Below are positions 24,137 through 57,231 of a stretch of DNA of 64,000 nt, piece after piece. Numbering within the stretch: the stretch's first letter is position 1; every line of letters starts with the position of its first letter. The notes under the pieces were generated by a model. That model worked only from the letters and a program-made list of their open reading frames with translations, searched no databases and was not told where the DNA came from. The position numbers were made by a program, and so were the translations under genes. The stretch comes from Streptomyces sp. HUAS MG91. Lineage in GTDB: Bacteria; Actinomycetota; Actinomycetes; Streptomycetales; Streptomycetaceae. The stretch is from the NCBI RefSeq assembly GCF_040529335.1, contig NZ_CP159534.1, positions 4,588,001 through 4,652,000 on the forward strand. Direction: 5' to 3'.

Positions 24137-24898
24137 ATGGCCGACGCACCGTACAAGCTGATCCTCCTCCGCCACGGCGAGAGCGAGTGGAACGCGAAGA
24201 ACCTGTTCACCGGATGGGTGGACGTCAATCTGAACGAGAAGGGCGAGAAGGAGGCGGTCCGCGGCGGTGAGCTGCTCAAGGACGCCGGCCTGCTCCCCGA
24301 CGTGGTGCACACCTCGCTCCAGAAGCGCGCCATCCGCACGGCCCAGCTGGCGCTGGAGTCCGCGGACCGCCACTGGATCCCCGTCCACCGCTCGTGGCGC
24401 CTGAACGAGCGCCACTACGGCGCCCTCCAGGGCAAGGACAAGGCGCAGACGCTCGCCGAGTTCGGCGAGGAGCAGTTCATGCTGTGGCGCCGCTCGTACG
24501 ACACCCCGCCGCCGCCGCTCGACAACGACGCCGAGTACTCCCAGTTCTCCGACCCGCGCTACGCGACGCTCCCGCCCGAGCTGCGCCCGCAGACGGAGTG
24601 CCTCAAGGACGTCGTCGTCCGCATGCTCCCGTACTGGTTCGACGGCATCGTCCCCGACCTGCTGACCGGCAAGACGGTCCTGGTCGCGGCCCACGGCAAC
24701 TCGCTGCGCGCCCTGGTCAAGCACCTGGACGGCATCTCGGACGCGGACATCGCGGGCCTGAACATCCCGACGGGCATCCCGCTGGCCTACGAACTGGACG
24801 CCGACTTCAAGCCGCTGAAGCCGGGCGGCACGTACCTGGACCCGGACGCGGCCGCGGCGGCGATCGAGGCTGTGAAGAACCAGGGCAAGAAGAAGTAA
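24137..24898 (+). CDS. gpmA: 2,3-bisphosphoglycerate-dependent phosphoglycerate mutase
   Basis: This 253-residue cytoplasmic glycolytic enzyme interconverts 3- and 2-phosphoglycerate. Signatures are [20 protein letters not shown] with the phospho-acceptor His, the [15 protein letters not shown] region, and the second catalytic His in [17 protein letters not shown]. The length is normal. The last six codons (encoding QGKKK and stop) are repeated at 31959-31976, after 7.1 kb of mobile-element DNA. The visible 3' end was probably supplied by that element and regenerates the gene exactly. Confidence 0.97.
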
Positions 24899-24902
24899 GC
24901 CC
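24880..24902 (+). repeat. Left attachment-type direct repeat (att core) in the gpmA 3' end
   Basis: CCAGGGCAAGAAGAAGTA at 24880-24897 plus AGCCC is repeated at 31959-31981 with one mismatch in 23 bases. The two copies bracket integrase, excisionase and replication genes. They are read as attL and attR of an element that inserts into the 3' end of gpmA (inference). Confidence 0.7.
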
Positions 24903-24906
24903 AATG

Positions 24907-24953
24907 CATCAGGCCTCCTACCAGCGCTTTCTTCGCCGGTAGGAGGCCTGATG
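24907..24953. terminator. Strong hairpin after gpmA
   Basis: A perfect 16-bp stem (CATCAGGCCTCCTACC and its complement) encloses a 15-base loop. By the integration model this hairpin belongs to the element; the original gpm terminator would be the one at 31990-32028. Confidence 0.85.
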
Positions 24954-24983
24954 TCGTGTCTGGGCCGTGCTTGGGCCGTGACG

Positions 24984-25178
24984 CTAGATGGCCTGCCTCT
25001 TCCAGAGGCGGGCGGTCACCCGGAACGTGATGAGGAAGATCCCGACGCCGACGGCATAAACGGGAGCCTCCACCCAGAGCGCGAGGGCGCCGCCTGCGCC
25101 CCCGACCACTGCGAACGAAAGTCCGCGAGGGGCGATGACGATCGTTACGCCGAAGCGTGGCACCATGGTGTTCTCCAT
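24984..25178 (-). CDS. Small membrane protein, unknown function
   Basis: The 64-residue protein has two hydrophobic segments (LSFAVVGGAGGALALWVEAPVY and VYAVGVGIFLITFRVTARL) and a basic end (RLWKRQAI). A textbook ribosome site (AGGAGG, five bases before the ATG) supports expression. It resembles the small membrane proteins carried by actinomycete integrative plasmids, but no family is recognised. It lies between two hairpins. Confidence 0.7.
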   Translation of the reverse strand: MENTMVPRFGVTIVIAPRGLSFAVVGGAGGALALWVEAPVYAVGVGIFLITFRVTARLWKRQAI

Positions 25179-25223
25179 GGGTTCCTCCTAGTTGACTCAA
25201 TGACAAGGCGCCTAATGGAGATC

Positions 25224-25253
25224 GAAGGCCACCCATTGCACTGGGTGGCCTTC
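25224..25253. terminator. Hairpin upstream of the small membrane protein gene
   Basis: A twelve-bp perfect stem (GAAGGCCACCCA / TGGGTGGCCTTC) with a six-base loop. Confidence 0.75.
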
Positions 25254-25585
25254 TCGCTTCCCCGCTAGTGGACGGGACGATATTGCACAGGCGTCACTTC
25301 ACGCAAATCCCTACCTGATTGCGGAATTTGCACTTACGCATAGATGTTGTGTCGGTCGACATGCTTCGGCTGTGGCCACTCCTTTTGTGTCCCATTTCCA
25401 GCAAGCCTTCGTTCCCTCGACCCTGTGGGCCTTCTTCCGTGCTGAGGGCCGCCTTTGTAGTGTCTGGCGGGATGGCCCTCCAGACAGACGGCCGCCCGGC
25501 CGACCGGGAGGGCGGCCGGGCGGCCGGGCGGATGGACGTTCAGGTGGCTGCTAACAGAGCTCCTCCTTGCCCCGCTCATCTGCGG
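25254..25585. other. Gene-poor stretch of the element
   Basis: No supported gene is seen. It holds a lower-GC segment (25270-25440) and a GC-only hairpin (GGCCGCCCGGCC at 25490-25501, complement at 25514-25525) just before the 68-bp array. Confidence 0.5.
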
Positions 25586-25925
25586 TTTCGTGGGAGATTG
25601 TGGTTCCGGTAGAACTTTCACGGATGGTGTTTCCACTTCGGGATGTCTGTTGGTTTCGTGGGAGATTGTGGTTCCGGTAGAACTTTCACGGATGGTGTTT
25701 CCACTTCGGGATGTCTGTTGGTTTCGTGGGAGATTGTGGTTCCGGTAGAACTTTCACGGATGGTGTTTCCACTTCGGGATGTCTGTTGGTTTCGTGGGAG
25801 ATTGTGGTTCCGGTAGAACTTTCACGGATGGTGTTTCCACTTCGGGATGTCTGTTGGTTTCGTGGGAGATTGTGGTTCCGATAGAACCTTCACAGACGGT
25901 GTTTCCACTTCTGGGAGTCCGCAGT
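25586..25925 (+). repeat. 68-bp tandem repeat array (four identical units plus one diverged)
   Basis: Units start at 25586, 25654, 25722 and 25790 (identical, 68 bp) and at 25858 (diverged, about 60 bp recognisable). Each begins TTTCGTGGGAGATTGTGGTT and contains the small inverted motif GTTCCGGTAGAAC. Because 68 is not a multiple of three, it does not encode a repeat protein. It ends a few bases before the integrase stop, so it may hold integrase or Rep binding sites. There are no spacers, so it is not a CRISPR array. Confidence 0.95.
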
Positions 25926-25936
25926 CTCATCGAGCT

Positions 25937-27169
25937 TCAGCCCTCAGAGGGAGCAAAGTCAGAGGCCACAGCGCTACGCGTACGCTCCTGGCTGGACGGC
26001 ATCAGGTGCGCGTACACGCGCAGCGTCAGTCCCGGATCTGAGTGGCCTAGGTACTCAGCGAGAGCCTTGATGTTTTCCCCGGCATCCAGGAGCACCGACG
26101 CGTAGAAGTGCCGCAGCGCGTGCATACCGTTCTCTCGTGACTCGGCGTACGGCTCCCCGCGCTCAGGAACCGGGATCACCCCGGCGCCGGCCAGCGCCCG
26201 CTTCCACGCCTCCTCGTTCAGCGACGTACGCCAGACGTGACCGCCCCGAGGCCCGGTGAAGATCAGCCGCTTGGTCACTGGTGGCCCGTCCGCGACCTTC
26301 CACGGCAAGGTGATCTCGACCGGCGGGAACCGCTTCATGTGGGCGCGGAGCGCGTCAGCGACCGAACCAGGAAGCGGTACGTCCCGCAGCTTGCCGCCTT
26401 TGGGCGGGGCGAACACGGCCTTGCTGCGGCTCAGCTTGAGTTGCTGGACCACGTGGAGCGCGTCCATCTCGAAGTCGATCGCGTCGACGGCGACGCCGAG
26501 GATCTCGCCTTGGCGGAGCCCGCAACCGGCGCCCAGGTCGACCATGGCTTGGAAGCGCTCGGGCATGGCGGCCCGGACGGCGAAGACCCGCTCTGGCGTC
26601 CACGGGAGCACGCGCTTGGTGTCGATGACCGGCGGTCGGACGGAACGAGCGGCACAGGGGTTCCGGGGAAGGTGTCCGTCGTCCACGGCGGCGCTCAAAG
26701 CAGCCCGTACGTTGGAGTAGATCGTCCGCGCGTACGACCCCCTGACACCGTTCTCCTGGAGTTGCCGCACCCAGTCGCGGACGTGCGCTGGCTGGAAGGA
26801 GCCGAGCGGGCGCGTACCCAGGTACGGGAAGGCGTGCAGCCGGAGCTGTGACTCCATCGAGGCTTGGGTGTTCGGGTCGGCCCCCTGAGTAACCACCCAG
26901 CGTTCTGCATACTGCTGGAACGTGATCCGTGCGGCGCGTGGATCGATGTACTGACCGCGGGCCATGTCCGCCTCGATGTGCGCCAACCACTGGTCTGCGA
27001 GGCGCTTTTGCCGGTCGGGGAAGCTCTTGGACTTCTCCGTACCGTCCGGGCCAATGTAGCGAGCGCGGTAACGCTGTCCTGTCCCGTATCGGTCGGTCTT
27101 GACCTTGCGCGACTTCCCATCCGGGCCGGTCTCGGTTCTGTACCAGCGGTCTTGGACGTGCCCGGCCAT
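25937..27169 (-). CDS. int: Tyrosine site-specific integrase
   Basis: In this 410-residue protein the N-terminal arm-binding region (GQRYRARYIGPDGTEKSKSF) and SAM-like core-binding domain (about residues 70-170) precede the catalytic domain. The tyrosine recombinase residues visible are Arg in GCGLRQGEILG (near 215), the HxxR box MHALRHFYASVLLDAG (near 349), the His in LGHSDPGLTLR and the nucleophile Tyr in RVYAHLM. The ATG at 27169 overlaps the stop of the excisionase gene (TGATG). It inserts and excises the element. Confidence 0.95.
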   Translation of the reverse strand: MAGHVQDRWYRTETGPDGKSRKVKTDRYGTGQRYRARYIGPDGTEKSKSFPDRQKRLADQWLAHIEADMARGQYIDPRAARITFQQYAERWVVTQGADPNTQASMESQLRLHAFPYLGTRPLGSFQPAHVRDWVRQLQENGVRGSYARTIYSNVRAALSAAVDDGHLPRNPCAARSVRPPVIDTKRVLPWTPERVFAVRAAMPERFQAMVDLGAGCGLRQGEILGVAVDAIDFEMDALHVVQQLKLSRSKAVFAPPKGGKLRDVPLPGSVADALRAHMKRFPPVEITLPWKVADGPPVTKRLIFTGPRGGHVWRTSLNEEAWKRALAGAGVIPVPERGEPYAESRENGMHALRHFYASVLLDAGENIKALAEYLGHSDPGLTLRVYAHLMPSSQERTRSAVASDFAPSEG

Positions 27170-27408
27170 CAGGCGGCAGCCCCTTCCCGTAGCGACTCGA
27201 CCCAGGCTCGGACGTCCACGGGGTCGTAGCGCAGATGCCGGCCGACCCGGAAGCCGCGCGGGCCCGTGCGCTTGCGACGCCACTGATAGACCGTCTCGAC
27301 GCTGGGTAGGTCGAACATCGCCACCAGGTCATCAGGAGTCAGAAAGCGCGATGGCAAGGCCCGCGACTCGGCAGCCACGTCGGCGACGGCGAGGTGTCGG
27401 CTAGCCAT
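27169..27408 (-). CDS. xis: Excisionase-type helix-turn-helix protein (MerR-like fold)
   Basis: The 79-residue protein carries LTPDDLVAMFDLPSVETVYQ followed by RRKRTGPRGFRVGRHLRYDP, the pattern of the winged-helix excisionase family carried beside actinomycete integrases. Its stop overlaps the integrase start by one base and its start lies inside the 3' end of the rep gene (8-base overlap), so rep-xis-int form one operon. Confidence 0.9.
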   Translation of the reverse strand: MASRHLAVADVAAESRALPSRFLTPDDLVAMFDLPSVETVYQWRRKRTGPRGFRVGRHLRYDPVDVRAWVESLREGAAA

Positions 27409-28720
27409 GGGTGGGCTCTCCTTCTGTTCCTGGGGCGGGTTCGAGGGTTTCGGCGAGCCAGGTTTCGGTGTCGGTGAGGCCGGTTCCGGCGTAGACCCAG
27501 TGGGCGAGGACGAGGGTCGTGTCCGGGGCATACGGATTTTCGGAGGTGGCCAGGCCGTTGCTCGCTGCTGCGGCTTGGGCTCGGCGCCATCCGGCGCGGG
27601 CCGTGCGGAGAGCGCCGAGGGTGGTGGAGTAGCGGCGGGACTTGGTGGAGAAGTGGCCGCGGAAGCCGAGCATGTGGGCCCAGGCCCGGAGCCGGAGTTC
27701 TTCAAGTTCCTTGCGGGAGCCGAGGGCCCAGGCGGTGCGGACCATGCGGCGGGCGTGGTCGCTGATGTCGAACTGGGCGAGTTCGGCGAGAAACTTGAGC
27801 GGGCGGTCGAGTGCTCCCGTCGCTGTCTCGGCGCCCTTGGTCGCGTACTTGGCGATGTACGCGGCGACGGCTCGTTCGGTGAGTTCTTGGCCGCCGTCGA
27901 AGTCGGCGGATCGGATGGTGCGCACGTCGAGTTGGCGGCCGAAGGCGAAAGCGTGGGCGCGGTGGTCGATGACCGGGCCGTCCACCTGGGCGGCGGTGGT
28001 CGCGGTGCGGATGGCGTCGGTGAGGAGTTCGGCGGTGGCCCAGGCGGGCGGTGGGGTGTCGCCGCCCTCGGGGCCGTCGATGCGGATGACGGCGTGGAAG
28101 TGGACGGCGCCGCGCTTCTGGTACTCGGCGACCTTGGCGAAGGAGACGCGGGCGTAGTCGCGGAGGGTGCGTTGGGAGAGGCCGGCGCGCTTGGCGACCT
28201 CGCGGCGGAGGTAGATCGAGAAGCGTCGCCAGAGCAGGCCCGCGTGAGCGTTCCAGAGCACGGCTGCGTCGTAGTCGTAGGTGCCCGGGTCGAGCGGGGT
28301 GCCGAGGGCGGCGTCTTCCTGGTCGTGGAGCACGCCGCAGCGGCAGGGGCGGATCGTTCGGGCCGGGCCGGTGGGGCGGTTGTGGACCGGGCCGAAGCCG
28401 GGGGCGGTGAAGGTGGCGAATACGCGGGGGTGAGCGGCGACGCGTTCGGGGACACCCTTGCCGCCGCGCAGGCCGGAGGTGATCAGGTGGAAGGTGTCGC
28501 GGCGGTAGACCTCGGCGCAGGCCGGACAGCGGGTCGAGCGGCGGTTGTTGCAGCGGACCAGGAGGTGACCGGCCGGGAGGGCGGTGGAGTCGAGGTGGTG
28601 GAGGACGTTGCCGATCTCGCCCGTACCGGTGTTCAGTGCGTGTTCGGTGCGGTGGCCGTCAAGGCGGATCGGGTGCGTGCAGCCGCCGAGGCCGGAGAGC
28701 TGGCGCAGGAGCGCGGGCAT
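27401..28720 (-). CDS. repSA: RepSA-type replication initiator
   Basis: The protein has 439 residues from the ATG at 28720. The cysteine-rich N-terminal part (RCNNRRSTRCPACAEVYRRD) and the motifs VHFHAVIRIDG (HUH-like, near residue 206) and AAYIAKYATKGAE (catalytic Tyr region, near 285) identify a rolling-circle initiator of the pSAM2 RepSA group. The reading frame continues upstream with family-like residues (ITRATPPPLSELGELAALGT) and an AAGGAG site at 28790-28795 that would serve an ATC codon at 28783, so the true start may be a rare non-ATG codon. Confidence 0.9.
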   Translation of the reverse strand: MPALLRQLSGLGGCTHPIRLDGHRTEHALNTGTGEIGNVLHHLDSTALPAGHLLVRCNNRRSTRCPACAEVYRRDTFHLITSGLRGGKGVPERVAAHPRVFATFTAPGFGPVHNRPTGPARTIRPCRCGVLHDQEDAALGTPLDPGTYDYDAAVLWNAHAGLLWRRFSIYLRREVAKRAGLSQRTLRDYARVSFAKVAEYQKRGAVHFHAVIRIDGPEGGDTPPPAWATAELLTDAIRTATTAAQVDGPVIDHRAHAFAFGRQLDVRTIRSADFDGGQELTERAVAAYIAKYATKGAETATGALDRPLKFLAELAQFDISDHARRMVRTAWALGSRKELEELRLRAWAHMLGFRGHFSTKSRRYSTTLGALRTARAGWRRAQAAAASNGLATSENPYAPDTTLVLAHWVYAGTGLTDTETWLAETLEPAPGTEGEPTHG

Positions 28721-28883
28721 GGTGCCGAGTGCGGCCAGTTCGCCGAGTTCGGACAGCGGCGGCGGGGTGGCGCGGGTGATGATGGTCTTCTCCTTCTGGC
28801 TGAGGTCAGGAGGGGTAGGGCCCCGGGGCGGCGGATGCTTGGCGGTATCAAGGCCGCCCCGGGGGTCTGTTGTGCTGGTGGTG

Positions 28884-29129
28884 TCAGCGGCGGTGGGAGT
28901 CGCGGAGTATCGAGCGCAGGACCACGGCCGCGATGGCCACGGAGATGGCCGTGACGGCGACGGCGGCCAGGAGCGCGGTCAGGACGACGCCGCCGACGAG
29001 GACAGTCACGACCGCGCCGGTGCTGACGGAGATCTGCGGGATCGGCCGATGAACAGGAGCCGGATCGGTCGGCGCGTGCGTGTGCGCGGGCGGCGGGGTC
29101 GGGCTGTCGGGGTACTTGGGCAGGAACAC
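28884..29129 (-). CDS. spdD: Mobile element transfer/spread protein SpdD
   Basis: The 81-residue protein has a proline/histidine-rich N-terminus (MFLPKYPDSPTPPPAHTHAP) and a long hydrophobic C-terminal half, ending VVLRSILRDSHRR. This matches SpdD proteins of Streptomyces conjugative plasmids, which help intramycelial plasmid spread at the membrane. The GTG at 29129 follows AAGGAGAG. Its presence without a TraB gene suggests the transfer region was reduced. Confidence 0.85.
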   Translation of the reverse strand: MFLPKYPDSPTPPPAHTHAPTDPAPVHRPIPQISVSTGAVVTVLVGGVVLTALLAAVAVTAISVAIAAVVLRSILRDSHRR

Positions 29130-29408
29130 GGCAGAACTCTCCTTGCCTACTCGTCAAGCACCCGGCTGCGCTCCGCTCCGCCGGGCGGGCTTCCCGGCTC
29201 CGCTCGGGGCTGCGCTCATGCCTTCGGCCCGCGCCGCCCCGGCTGCGCCGACGCCCGCCCACAGTGGATAGGCCCGGAGGCATGAGTCGAGCCCCCGACA
29301 CGTATCCGGCCACCGGTCACAGACGATGCCTCCGGCGGGGGGTCGGCCGGCACCGGGTGGGAGGGGGCGCCGTTCCCGGCCGCGGGCACATCGTGGCGAG
29401 CGTTGGGG

Positions 29409-29559
29409 GCTCCCATCCCGTCCACCATCGACCCAGGCAGAGCCGAGCAGACGCGGCCCATGGCGTCCAGGTCGTTCGTACAGTGGCGCGCTCCACCTGG
29501 ACGCCATGAACCACGCCCGCGCCACAGACGTGTGGGTCGACGGCGGACGGGATGGGAGC
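29409..29559. repeat. Nested inverted repeat, candidate replication or processing site
   Basis: The outer arms 29409-29435 and 29533-29559 match at 25 of 27 bases (GCTCCCATCCCGTCC end). The inner arms 29459-29472 and 29495-29508 are a perfect 14-bp match (CATGGCGTCCAGGT) around a 22-base loop. The whole could fold into a cruciform of about 150 bases. In a rolling-circle element this could be a single-strand or double-strand origin; an RNA structure is the alternative. Confidence 0.75.
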
Positions 29560-29866
29560 TGAGGTGAGTGGTGGGCTGAGGAGGATGCGAAGGTCCCGGA
29601 CCTTCACTTCCAAGGATCAAGAGCCTCAACTCAGGTCCTGATTTAATTAAACCAGGCAGGGAGGGGGTTTTACCTACGAATCCCTTGCCAGTCGGGGGCT
29701 GTTCGGGCACACTCGACCTCAAGGGCGGCGCTGGGTCTTTGGCGTTGGTTCCACATGTGCGGCCTGACCTGCGGAAATGGCCAACGCCCCGCGGCTCCAG
29801 GGCAGTTGCACCTCGGGAATGCTAGAGTCGCCCCGCCCGCAACAGAAAAACGACATGCCAATAGGA

Positions 29867-29900
29867 CGCTTGCGTCACCTTCCACAGATAACAAGCGTCC
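29867..29900 (+). promoter_or_regulatory. Leader hairpin upstream of the small CDS at 29923
   Basis: GGACGCTTG (29867-29875) and CAAGCGTCC (29892-29900) form a perfect nine-bp stem, ten bases before the AGGAGG ribosome site. It is possibly a regulatory or stabilising leader structure. Confidence 0.5.
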
Positions 29901-29922
29901 AACGGCTTTAGGAGGTACTTGA

Positions 29923-30123
29923 GTGCCCGAAGAGCACCAGCCCACCGTAATCCATAACTCATTATGGAGCAACGGTTCCGCACAACGTAGCGGCGAGTGC
30001 GCAGCTTGCGCAAGCTCACCGCCGCCAGAGCCCCCCAGGTGGCAACGCGTGGTGCAGGTCGTAACCCCGCTGGTTGCCGCCCTGTCCCCGATCGTCTCTG
30101 CTGTCATAACCAAGAGCGGGTAG
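29923..30123 (+). CDS. Small protein with C-terminal hydrophobic helix
   Basis: The 66-residue protein begins at GTG 29923 with AGGAGG seven bases upstream, the best ribosome site in this stretch. The N-terminus is polar with two cysteines (GECAACASS) and the C-terminus is one hydrophobic helix (VVQVVTPLVAALSPIVSAVI). Unlike the rest of the element core it is on the plus strand. No family is recognised; a small membrane peptide or type-I-like toxin is conceivable but unproven. Confidence 0.55.
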   Translation: MPEEHQPTVIHNSLWSNGSAQRSGECAACASSPPPEPPRWQRVVQVVTPLVAALSPIVSAVITKSG

Positions 30124-30265
30124 CCGCAAGAACCATGCTCCTGCGGTCGTGCCCCTGGCGTGCCCGATAGACCGGGGACTCACGGGGAATCACGGTCACC
30201 AGCGGGCAGCGAGTGCGACGAAGGCCCCCGACCGTCAATGCTGGTCAGGGGCCTTCAACTCAAGC

Positions 30266-30322
30266 GGTGGGTGTGGGATTTGAACCCACGGTGACTCTCG
30301 CCACGACGGTTTTCAAGATCGT
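30266..30322 (-). pseudogene. tRNA-Ser(UGA) 3'-half fragment (att-type remnant)
   Basis: Read on the minus strand, CTTGAAA (anticodon loop, UGA) is followed by the anticodon 3' stem, a long variable arm (CGTGGCGAGAGTCACCG), the T-arm GGGTTCAAATCCC and the acceptor end ACCCACCG. The 5' half is missing. Such 3' fragments are typical of element ends that integrate into tRNA genes. No matching tRNA is in the window, so it looks like a relic of an earlier integration or donor site. Confidence 0.8.
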
Positions 30323-30350
30323 ATGCCGCAGTTCGAGGCTTGTGGGTCGT

Positions 30351-30728
30351 TCAGTCACCAGTGAAGACGGGGACGATCACTGCTGCGATCGCAGAGAGTA
30401 GGCCCGCTACAGCCAAGAAGGCATTGAACTTCTCTTTCGCGGTCGGGAAGACGGCGCGGCTCACGTCCCCGACCTTGCTCCGCAGCACGATCATCTTGAG
30501 CTTCTGCCAACGATGTTGGCGGTTTCGGCACCCCATCAGAACGCCGTAGGCATTGTTCCGGCAGTACGTCCTGCCGTCGCGGTTGACCGCTCCACACCAG
30601 ACTGGCACCTGGAAGGAGGCATAGGCGAAGACCGCGATGGACAAGGCGGCAACGATCGGGAGGGCCCATTGCTGGGTCCAGGCGACTATGAGTGCTGCAA
30701 CGGCGATGTATCCCCAGTACAGGCGCAT
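30351..30728 (-). CDS. Small membrane protein with Cys-rich loop (AICE/phage-associated)
   Basis: The 125-residue protein has hydrophobic segments at the N-terminus (WGYIAVAALIVAWTQQWALP, ALSIAVFAYASFQV) and the C-terminus (AFLAVAGLLSAIAAVIVPVF). Between them is a conserved-looking loop WCGAVNRDGRTYCRNNAYG followed by LMGCRNRQHRWQKLK, with three cysteines that could bind zinc. I recall similar proteins on actinomycete mobile elements, without a known function. ATG codons at 30728 (GGGGAAA upstream), 30740 and 30761 are possible. Confidence 0.65.
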   Translation of the reverse strand: MRLYWGYIAVAALIVAWTQQWALPIVAALSIAVFAYASFQVPVWCGAVNRDGRTYCRNNAYGVLMGCRNRQHRWQKLKMIVLRSKVGDVSRAVFPTAKEKFNAFLAVAGLLSAIAAVIVPVFTGD

Positions 30729-31268
30729 GGCTTTCCCCATGAGAGCGCAGCGTAATGGCATATGCGCAGGTCAAGCAGCGGCGAGAACCGGACAGAGTTC
30801 CCACCATGGCGCGTACGTCTCTCTTGACTGCCGGTGCCACTAGCGACGCAGCCTGGACAAGACCGGGACCGCTGCGGCGATACTGAGAGCCGCTGAATTG
30901 AGCCCAGCGCTGCTGGGTGCCGGACTGTGTGTGCTCGTGGCACTTGTATGCCGTCGCGTCGCTCGCTCCAACCGTGACGAAACGTCTCAGACTGTGTGCG
31001 AGAGGGTGATGGCTATGGTGACTTCCTTGATGGTTGCTGGTCGCCAAATGGTTGCCGGCGTCTGTGAAGGCGTCGTTGGCGGGGCCTGCTTCGCCTTGAT
31101 GACGGGCGCAGCAGTGCCGGGCTGAGTTCAGCGCTTGGGTGGCTCCTGACATCCACCGCTGACATCAACGGCGGTGGAAGTCAGCGAACTCCCAGGGTTC
31201 GCGGAGGACGAGGCGACGGCTGACTCTCCTAGGCAGACAGCCTCCGGATCGAACTCCTAATGCGGTGC
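30729..31268. other. Gene-poor stretch between the Cys-loop membrane protein and the HAD gene
   Basis: Several frames are open (for example 30898-31125 on the plus strand, with a hydrophobic translation), but none has a ribosome site, family features or GC3 bias. No RNA gene is recognised. Confidence 0.45.
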
Positions 31269-31787
31269 TCACCTCGGTATGACGAGACGGAGCCAGTCGT
31301 CGAACGCGGAGAAGTCGGCATCCGTGATGCCCTTGCCGGGATCGACGCGATGAAGCAATGACGGCCCGGGGTGGCTGGCATCGACCCACAGGCGGTCTAT
31401 GGCGCTGATTTCGTCGTCGACCCAGATGAACGGCCGGTCGTCGGCCCACTCGACGATGGCGCGGGTCTTCCAGTGCAGACCGCGCGGGCCTTCGGCGGTG
31501 CTGGAAGCCGGCCACTCCACCACGGGCAGCCTCGGCAGTCCAATGCGTGGGGAGACGACCTCGTTCGCCTCCTCCATCCAGGTCGTTGCCCACACGAGCT
31601 GACATCCCAGGGCTATGAGGCGCGGCCCGAGCTCAGGGTCGAGCCGCGTCAGCAGTGGGTTTCCCTGATCAGCAGACGTCCAGGTATCGGAGGCGGAGTC
31701 TTGTGGATGACCGGACGACGACCCGAACGGGATCAGTGGACCGTCGACGTCAAGAAAGAGGAGGGGACACTCCGGGCCGCTTGTCAC
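31269..31787 (-). CDS. HAD-like hydrolase domain protein
   Basis: The 172-residue protein has HAD motif I CPLLFLDVDGPLIPFG near the N-terminus. LVWATTWMEEAN follows (motif II-like Thr), then a Lys in HWKTRAIVEWA and the motif III/IV acidic pair in FIWVDDEISAIDR. This is the Streptomyces HAD group annotated near RNA-repair Swiss-army-knife proteins; the substrate is unknown. The start is uncertain; GTG 31787 lies close to motif I and lacks a clear ribosome site. It is the last gene before the right repeat and probably cargo of the element. Confidence 0.75.
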   Translation of the reverse strand: MTSGPECPLLFLDVDGPLIPFGSSSGHPQDSASDTWTSADQGNPLLTRLDPELGPRLIALGCQLVWATTWMEEANEVVSPRIGLPRLPVVEWPASSTAEGPRGLHWKTRAIVEWADDRPFIWVDDEISAIDRLWVDASHPGPSLLHRVDPGKGITDADFSAFDDWLRLVIPR

Positions 31788-31958
31788 GGCGGCACGATAG
31801 CTCGGTGTAGCAACGGAGCCTCCCTCATCCCTGGGCCGTCCCTCGGCCGTCCGAAGCCGCTCAACACCGGCAGACGACGACCAATGACGACCAGTCAGGC
31901 AGCCTGGGCCAGGCCCCGGAGCTGCAAAAACGCAGGTCGCCAAGATCCCCGGCAATAC

Positions 31959-31981
31959 CCAGGGCAAGAAGAAGTAGGCCC
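31959..31981 (+). repeat. Right attachment-type direct repeat (att core)
   Basis: This is the second copy of CCAGGGCAAGAAGAAGTA followed by GGCCC. The bases before it do not resemble gpm, whereas a terminator-like hairpin follows, as expected for the displaced original 3' end of gpmA. Confidence 0.7.
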
Positions 31982-31989
31982 GACGCTTC

Positions 31990-32028
31990 AAGCCCCCTGT
32001 CCGCGGGTTCTCCGCGAGTAGAGGGCTT
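31990..32028. terminator. Branched hairpin after the right repeat (probable original gpmA terminator)
   Basis: The outer arms AAGCCCCCT and AGAGGGCTT and the inner CGCGG / CCGCG form a branched stem directly after the gpm-like end. Confidence 0.6.
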
Positions 32029-32184
32029 CTTGCTGCCCTCGTGCCGGAGATCAAGCACTTCGACCGCTCCGTACGCGAGGGTGTGACCGCGATGATCATC
32101 GTGTGGCTGGTGCGATCACGGCGTCGAGCCGTTCCGGACAGGCCGTGTCTGGTCAGTCGAGCCGTGAGCGGGGAGTCTGGGGAC

Positions 32185-57157: not shown

Positions 57158-57231
57158 GCCTCCTTAGCTCAGCTGGTCAGAGCGCCGCTCTTGTAAAGCG
57201 AAGGTCGTCGGTTCGAATCCGACAGGGGGCT
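57158..57231 (+). tRNA. tRNA-Thr (anticodon UGU)
   Basis: The 74-base cloverleaf has acceptor arms GCCTCCT / AGGGGGC, D-loop AGCTCAGCTGGTCAGAGC, anticodon loop CTTGTAA (UGU) and T-arm GTCGGTTCGAATCCGAC. The CCA end is not encoded. It is a common insertion target, but no element is attached here. Confidence 0.96.

Follow-up and report, generated by a model that had tools for sequence, protein, structure and literature searches.

A RepSA-type integrative element very probably inserted at the 3' end of gpmA in Streptomyces sp. HUAS MG91

The gpmA locus and the core repeats

The DNA analyzed here is a 64,000-nucleotide stretch of the chromosome of Streptomyces sp. HUAS MG91 (contig NZ_CP159534.1, positions 4,588,001 to 4,652,000; called the window below, with positions counted from its first base), and the subject is a 7-kb segment that begins at the 3' end of gpmA. 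This gene, encoding a 2,3-bisphosphoglycerate-dependent phosphoglycerate mutase, occupies 24137..24898 on the plus strand (NCBIfam NF010718, 1.2e-139). Its end carries an 18-bp sequence, CCAGGGCAAGAAGAAGTA, at 24880..24897 (+), which codes for QGKKK and finishes with the first two bases, TA, of the gpmA stop codon. An identical copy is present at 31959..31976 (+), giving a core-to-core spacing of 7,079 bp. The left and right copies are referred to as the attL and attR cores. A search of the window with up to three mismatches returned two matches, compared with a mean of 0.01 in shuffled sequences (0 of 100 shuffles reached two), and in the whole 8.6-Mb genome these two cores are the only copies with at most one mismatch. 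The preliminary description of this stretch had noted an 18-base repeat at the gpmA stop codon and again 7,079 bases further on, matching in 22 of 23 bases when the flank is included; both statements agree with the sequence, and the repeat is now seen to have just these two copies genome-wide. The single tRNA gene detected in the window by ARAGORN is at 57158, so neither end of the segment lies at a tRNA gene.

Three genes stand in a row between the cores. A tyrosine integrase of 410 aa with an intact frame is encoded at 25937..27169 (-), its 3' end toward gpmA (PF00589, 1.1e-13; PF22022; PF14659; PHROG integrase, 1.1e-56). It is followed at 27169..27408 (-) by a gene for a 79-aa helix-turn-helix (HTH) protein that is excisionase-like (PF12728, HTH_17, 7.1e-9; PHROG excisionase, 4.8e-7, a weak family match), and at 27401..28720 (-) by a replication initiator of the pSAM2 RepSA type (PF20199, 1e-148; NF041486, 2.6e-158 but under its curated cut-off). 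These domain and family matches bear out the gene names given previously, except for "SpdD", which had been assigned to an 81-aa open reading frame (ORF) at 28884..29129 (-); this ORF has no match in Pfam, NCBIfam or PHROGs, leaving that name without library support. No match to the TraB domain PF01580 (FtsK/SpoIIIE) is found within the segment.

Direct repeats of 18 bp, a tyrosine integrase near one end together with an excisionase-like gene, and RepSA are all traits of actinomycete integrative and conjugative elements (AICEs). As RepSA is present and TraB was not found, the segment is classed as an AICE derivative and not as a complete AICE. From these features and the comparisons below, we are confident, short of certainty, that the segment is an actinomycete integrative element of the RepSA type, now lacking TraB, that was integrated at the gpmA 3' end by tyrosine-recombinase site-specific recombination.

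Recurrence at gpmA, attachment-site layout and crossover

The same arrangement recurs in other genomes. Among the best 80 of 132 integrase relatives with flanks, 48 have gpmA at a distance of 94-1855 bp from the 3' end of the integrase. The other 32, where gpmA is not found there, are the most distant, with at most 67.2% identity to the window integrase compared with 70.9-93.4% for the 48. In a sample of 101 genomes of the genus searched with the gpmA 3' part and the integrase, a complete or almost complete integrase stands directly 3' of gpmA in 12, namely the window's own genome (G000), G092, G096, G016, G023, G084, G065, G029, G069, G075, G046 and G070. The G016 integrase has one in-frame stop, those of G046 and G070 are in two pieces, and G025 has a fragment beside gpmA. 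At least a piece of the integrase (E ≤1e-3) is detectable in 26 of 99 gpmA 3' flanks from these genomes (G050 and G073, whose gpmA matches are at contig ends, were left out). In the 12 genomes, the gpmA elements carry RepSA in ten cases and FtsK/TraB above the cut-off in seven, the G069 match being below it. Of 392 genomes sampled from the genus, 297 contain the 18-mer without mismatch and none contains a backward control pattern; at least two exact cores were counted by hand in 61 of the 392.

Core pairs are just 2.2-3.8 kb apart in G003, G133, G301 and G315, which are perhaps decayed or non-autonomous elements. At another locus, L232 of G093, three gpmA cores follow one another and the right arms are of two types, which points to accretion at gpmA.

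To compare attachment sites, 25 elements with both cores in the available DNA were aligned; they represent 24 genomes, one element being included twice as L039 and L083, and the L045 right core, a copy with three mismatches, was placed by hand. In the window, the left core is followed at 24907..24953 (+) by a hairpin borne by the element and located where the gpmA terminator would be (RNA fold of 24896-24960, -39.3 kcal/mol, z -8.4), and hairpin-like sequence follows the left core in the other aligned elements as judged by eye. Next comes a pair of repeats, TGGGCCGTGCTTGGGCCGT, at 24961..24979 (+), starting 63 bp past the core. Its counterpart at the right end, TGGGCCGTCCCTCGGCCGT, is at 31832..31850 (+), with one mismatch and a start 127 bp ahead of the core. 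Across the alignment, the left arm holds two TGGGCCGT-like repeats at a distance of 11 bp, and this pair begins at +63 in 20 of 25 elements and between +61 and +66 in 24; the right pair starts at exactly -127 in 21, with others at -116, -131 and -155 and L035 off-pattern. With up to two mismatches allowed, 75 of 80 loci contain the arm motif no more than 1.5 kb from the 3' end of the integrase, compared with none of 80 reversed flanks. The window's genome contains five copies with at most one mismatch (backward control, 1), which are found at both element ends, 22 bp from another integrase of the family and at two other places. The TGGGCCGT repeats are best read as putative arm-type sites of the integrase.

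The position of strand exchange could be narrowed in G069, which has one element twice (L042 and L218, 11,073 bp at 99.96% identity): one copy lies at gpmA, the other at a different site. At this second site, core position 4 of the left junction is T rather than G, and position 8 of the right junction is G rather than A. The exchange thus took place between these two positions, in the region of the GGC codon. Differences between left and right cores in other elements agree with this mapping: in L045 (G070) the tail is KKK at gpmA and KK in the displaced copy, L091 shows the reverse, and the displaced core of L041 has a different base at position 16. A crossover at positions 4-8, taken with such differing cores, implies that the element provides the last Lys codons and the stop on the side joined to gpmA. 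The two cores of the window encode the same protein tail, and the stop is TAA at gpmA and TAG in the displaced copy. By transfer of the G069 crossover to the window, the last three Lys codons and the stop of this gpmA are probably element-supplied. The preliminary description had proposed that an integrative element restored the last codons of gpmA, and the comparison sustains this through the 48 of 80 loci, the attP layout and the G069 crossover.

Taken together, a course of integration can be proposed. The comparison supports an attP with a copy of the last gpmA codons, the hairpin and, to the left and right of the core, paired arm-type repeats, and it supports the mapped exchange as well. 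The joined gpmA accordingly keeps its frame, with the last Lys codons, stop and predicted terminator derived from the element. The integrase would bind the arm repeats, the HTH protein would presumably act as excisionase, and RepSA may replicate the excised circle. The left hairpin might terminate gpmA transcripts; a scan for hairpin-plus-T-run terminators at the left end returned none on the plus strand and only a minus-strand match, and with no plus-strand T-run, termination at this hairpin is put forward as a prediction. Transfer would need the TraB of another element. A second integrase of the family, with an arm site, RepSA and TraB, is in fact encoded in the same chromosome at C1:2045105-2050831 (about 2.05 Mb), and this element is a possible helper.

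Boundaries, rival explanations and other features

A hairpin past the right core, at 31988..32034 (+), may be the displaced original 3' flank of gpmA. It had been described earlier as a gpm-type terminator; it does resemble gpmA 3' flanks elsewhere, but it folds weakly (RNA fold, z -1.1). In G033, G058 and G099, which have no integrase there, the gpmA flank is 79-84% identical to the right hairpin flank over 69-77 bp, 17 bp of which are core, and G027 ranks alongside. The downstream genes did not serve as markers of the right flank, since ORFs of 173 aa and 137 aa gave no tblastn match (1e-6) in the 99 gpmA flanks. A downstream SDR gene is near gpmA in G059 (94%) and has a weak match (about 32%) in three others.

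Several observations weigh against an integrated element. First, a clean empty site was not found in a close relative. It had been predicted that relatives without the element would run directly from the gpm stop codon into the right-hand hairpin. G059, the nearest by gpmA (98%), shares the left hairpin up to half of the arm repeat (24970) and then departs, and it has neither an integrase match nor a second exact core despite this left end of an element; its flank looks like an element remnant. The distant genomes G033, G058, G027 and G099 do run from stop into hairpin, which is weak evidence, because the element-borne flank of G016 matches the right hairpin about equally well (81%). Since plain and element-borne flanks match alike, the right hairpin was rejected as proof of the native flank and says little on which hairpin is original. 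Second, the DNA past the right hairpin matches scattered places in other genomes. Given this and the ambiguous hairpin, it is mainly the core and the right arm repeat that define the right boundary. Third, identity is an imperfect guide to the target, as relatives of 77, 72 and 70% are located elsewhere (G011, G023 and G069) and relatives of 69% and 67% are at gpmA; in four of the 32 loci without gpmA (L098, L111, L112 and L119) the flank is shorter than 2 kb. Fourth, some second cores are distant from the first, as in G350 and G388, where the places listed are separated by megabases. Finally, excision and the circular form are predicted from the sequence. An excised element was sought in phage records, which gave no integrase match at 1e-30. 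The 18.4-kb circular NZ_CP107792.1 was considered as a possible excised form with an attP of the expected layout and was not used, its arm matches being off the family spacing.

The preliminary description had also held that relatives lacking the integrase, while still showing both repeats and the intervening DNA, would speak against integration. Taken literally, such a case is found in G003, where both repeats occur and gpmA has no integrase match next to it; the repeats there are 2.2 kb apart, spacing and intervening DNA differ from those in the window, and the locus is read here as a decayed element.

Among the alternatives, the one that survives best is that the segment is a composite of remnants, left by several elements that accumulated at gpmA and then decayed, with its two ends derived from different events. 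The three cores and two right-arm types of G093 favor it, as does a 59-bp copy of the 3' part of tRNA-Ser(TGA) inside the element at 30264..30322 (-), 98% identical to the gene at C1:4339449-4339507 of the same genome. A piece related to this fragment is also present inside the G023 element (L038), and the fragment is perhaps a fossil att site of another element or of an earlier integration module. However, both arm repeats of the window are at the distances typical of the family, the frames of the integrase, the HTH gene and RepSA are open, and the genome has just two cores. In addition, the right end, which encodes a HAD-domain protein that would be cargo (31269..31814, -; PF18143, 4.9e-8), resembles that of the G096 element, the DNA of this region being 82% similar. 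We thus regard a composite origin as unlikely.

Two further explanations are very improbable. The repeat might be a scrap of gpmA duplicated by homologous or illegitimate events unrelated to integration, and it does encode the gpmA C terminus; yet the right core is preceded not by gpmA but by an element end with an arm repeat that is similar across elements, and the arrangement recurs in many genomes, in G069 even with copies at two sites. That the true target is tRNA-Ser, as a tRNA gene is for most actinomycete elements, and that the gpmA repeat is incidental is suggested by the 59-bp fragment, but scarcely credible, as the tRNA-Ser(TGA) gene is about 280 kb away, the fragment is internal and the kin of the integrase are at gpmA. 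An insertion at gpmA by site-specific recombination is therefore the preferred reading.

The element contains several other features. A 68-bp tandem repeat of 4.9 nearly identical copies (25584..25916), between the left arm and the integrase gene, has no match in 29 other gpmA loci searched over about 1.5 kb of flank each. A large imperfect inverted repeat (29409..29559; DNA fold z -5.4) is a candidate replication origin or transfer locus. Several related loci have similar stretches, and one of these, L104, is located away from gpmA. A 136-aa protein encoded at 30351-30761 (-) appears hydrophobic by eye and has no Pfam, NCBIfam or PHROGs match, and several further small ORFs between the cores likewise lack library matches. 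An Rfam scan returned five matches at E ≤1 and none at the gathering score; among these, a tRNA-Sec match covers the tRNA-Ser fragment.

The integrase family, its targets and known systems

To place the gpmA integrases among their relatives, the 32 loci without gpmA were also considered. A tRNA scan of 28 of them found one (L131) with a tRNA gene, which is not at the integrase 3' end. In ten loci, a glutamine synthetase gene (GlnA, TIGR00653, matched on partial proteins) ends at a distance of about 115-140 bp from the integrase, and in ten others the first codons of rlmN, recognized by the start motif, are at the integrase, with cdsA or frr adjoining several of them; the same 20 bases begin rlmN of the window's own genome (NCBIfam RlmN). 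These sister integrases are accompanied by the arm repeats seen at gpmA. A quick tree was built from 92 integrases, with five of 96 loci left out for alignments under 330 aa, 16 rows having no assigned target and some genomes being present under two identifiers (L037/L068, L039/L083 and L041/L085). In this tree, a 59-row branch (approximate likelihood ratio support, SH-aLRT, 99) holds all 56 gpmA rows and three others, and the window integrase groups with the gpmA integrases. The ten glutamine synthetase rows fall in a 15-row branch (99), and nine of the ten rlmN rows in a 13-row branch (100). Target labels change 14 times on the tree compared with 33.6 times in shuffles. Integrase sequence and site are reported not to correlate in PMC9513070; for the present family, the two largely do correlate.

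On a broader scale, a single integrase family may have kept its arm-site recognition fixed while its core recognition was re-aimed among conserved protein genes, at the gpmA 3' end, the glutamine synthetase 3' end and the rlmN 5' end. Each gpmA insertion would replace the last codons, the stop and the terminator, so that these elements would time and again have altered how a central-metabolism gene ends and terminates, in some cases with a change of the protein (KK versus KKK). We consider the case for this picture to be evenly balanced.

The use of a protein-coding 3' end had been called unusual in the preliminary description. This is overstated, because among 51 elements of one Streptomyces population 36 are in tRNA genes, 14 in protein-coding sites, rlmN being named, and one in an intergenic site according to PMC9513070, and gpmA itself is a repeated target. 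Among the papers listed by searches directed at gpmA as an integration site, none looked like a report of it, and it may be named in the supplementary list of the 14 sites of PMC9513070; the string "phosphoglycer" is absent from the main texts of PMC9513070, PMC12884075 and PMC3218068. PMC3516476 was set aside as a precedent for a phosphoglycerate mutase attB, since in its account such genes stand beside integrases on a plasmid and the attB is a tRNA-Ser gene. The gpmA site may thus be unreported in the main texts consulted, and the kind of element is already known; what is added here is the attP anatomy, the crossover and an integrase family aimed at different gene ends. A precisely defined attB, attP and crossover would be useful for a site-specific integration vector, in which gpmA should stay intact. 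The gpmA, glutamine synthetase and rlmN groups also provide a natural series in which to study how a tyrosine integrase can switch targets and keep its arm sites, and the exchange of the gpmA terminator and last codons raises the question of whether it matters for glycolysis.

Replacement of the 3' end of a central-metabolism gene is known from prophage e14 and phage 21 at icd of E. coli, where host and element type are unrelated to those here. With pSAM2-like RepSA AICEs, the window element shares the tyrosine integrase, excisionase-like gene and RepSA in a row and the flanking repeats, but it targets the end of a protein-coding gene and has no TraB match. Nor does it correspond to a DAICE, for which PMC9513070 gives a definition of traB present with int or rep missing, as no traB match is found in the element. 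Most tyrosine-integrase AICEs use tRNA 3' ends, the pSLS integrase subfamily being described as an exception (Ghinet et al. 2011, PMC3218068), and the window element, with its non-tRNA target, may be compared with that subfamily. AICE03 of strain RLB3-6, inserted in rlmN, also has a protein-coding target, and one sister group of the present family is at the rlmN start; AICE03 differs in its site and in its 11-nt repeats (PMC9513070). PAISt of Streptomyces turgidiscabies likewise relies on a tyrosine recombinase at a protein-coding 3' end, that of bacA, but it has an 8-bp palindromic core and is a large island with virulence genes (PMC4057263).

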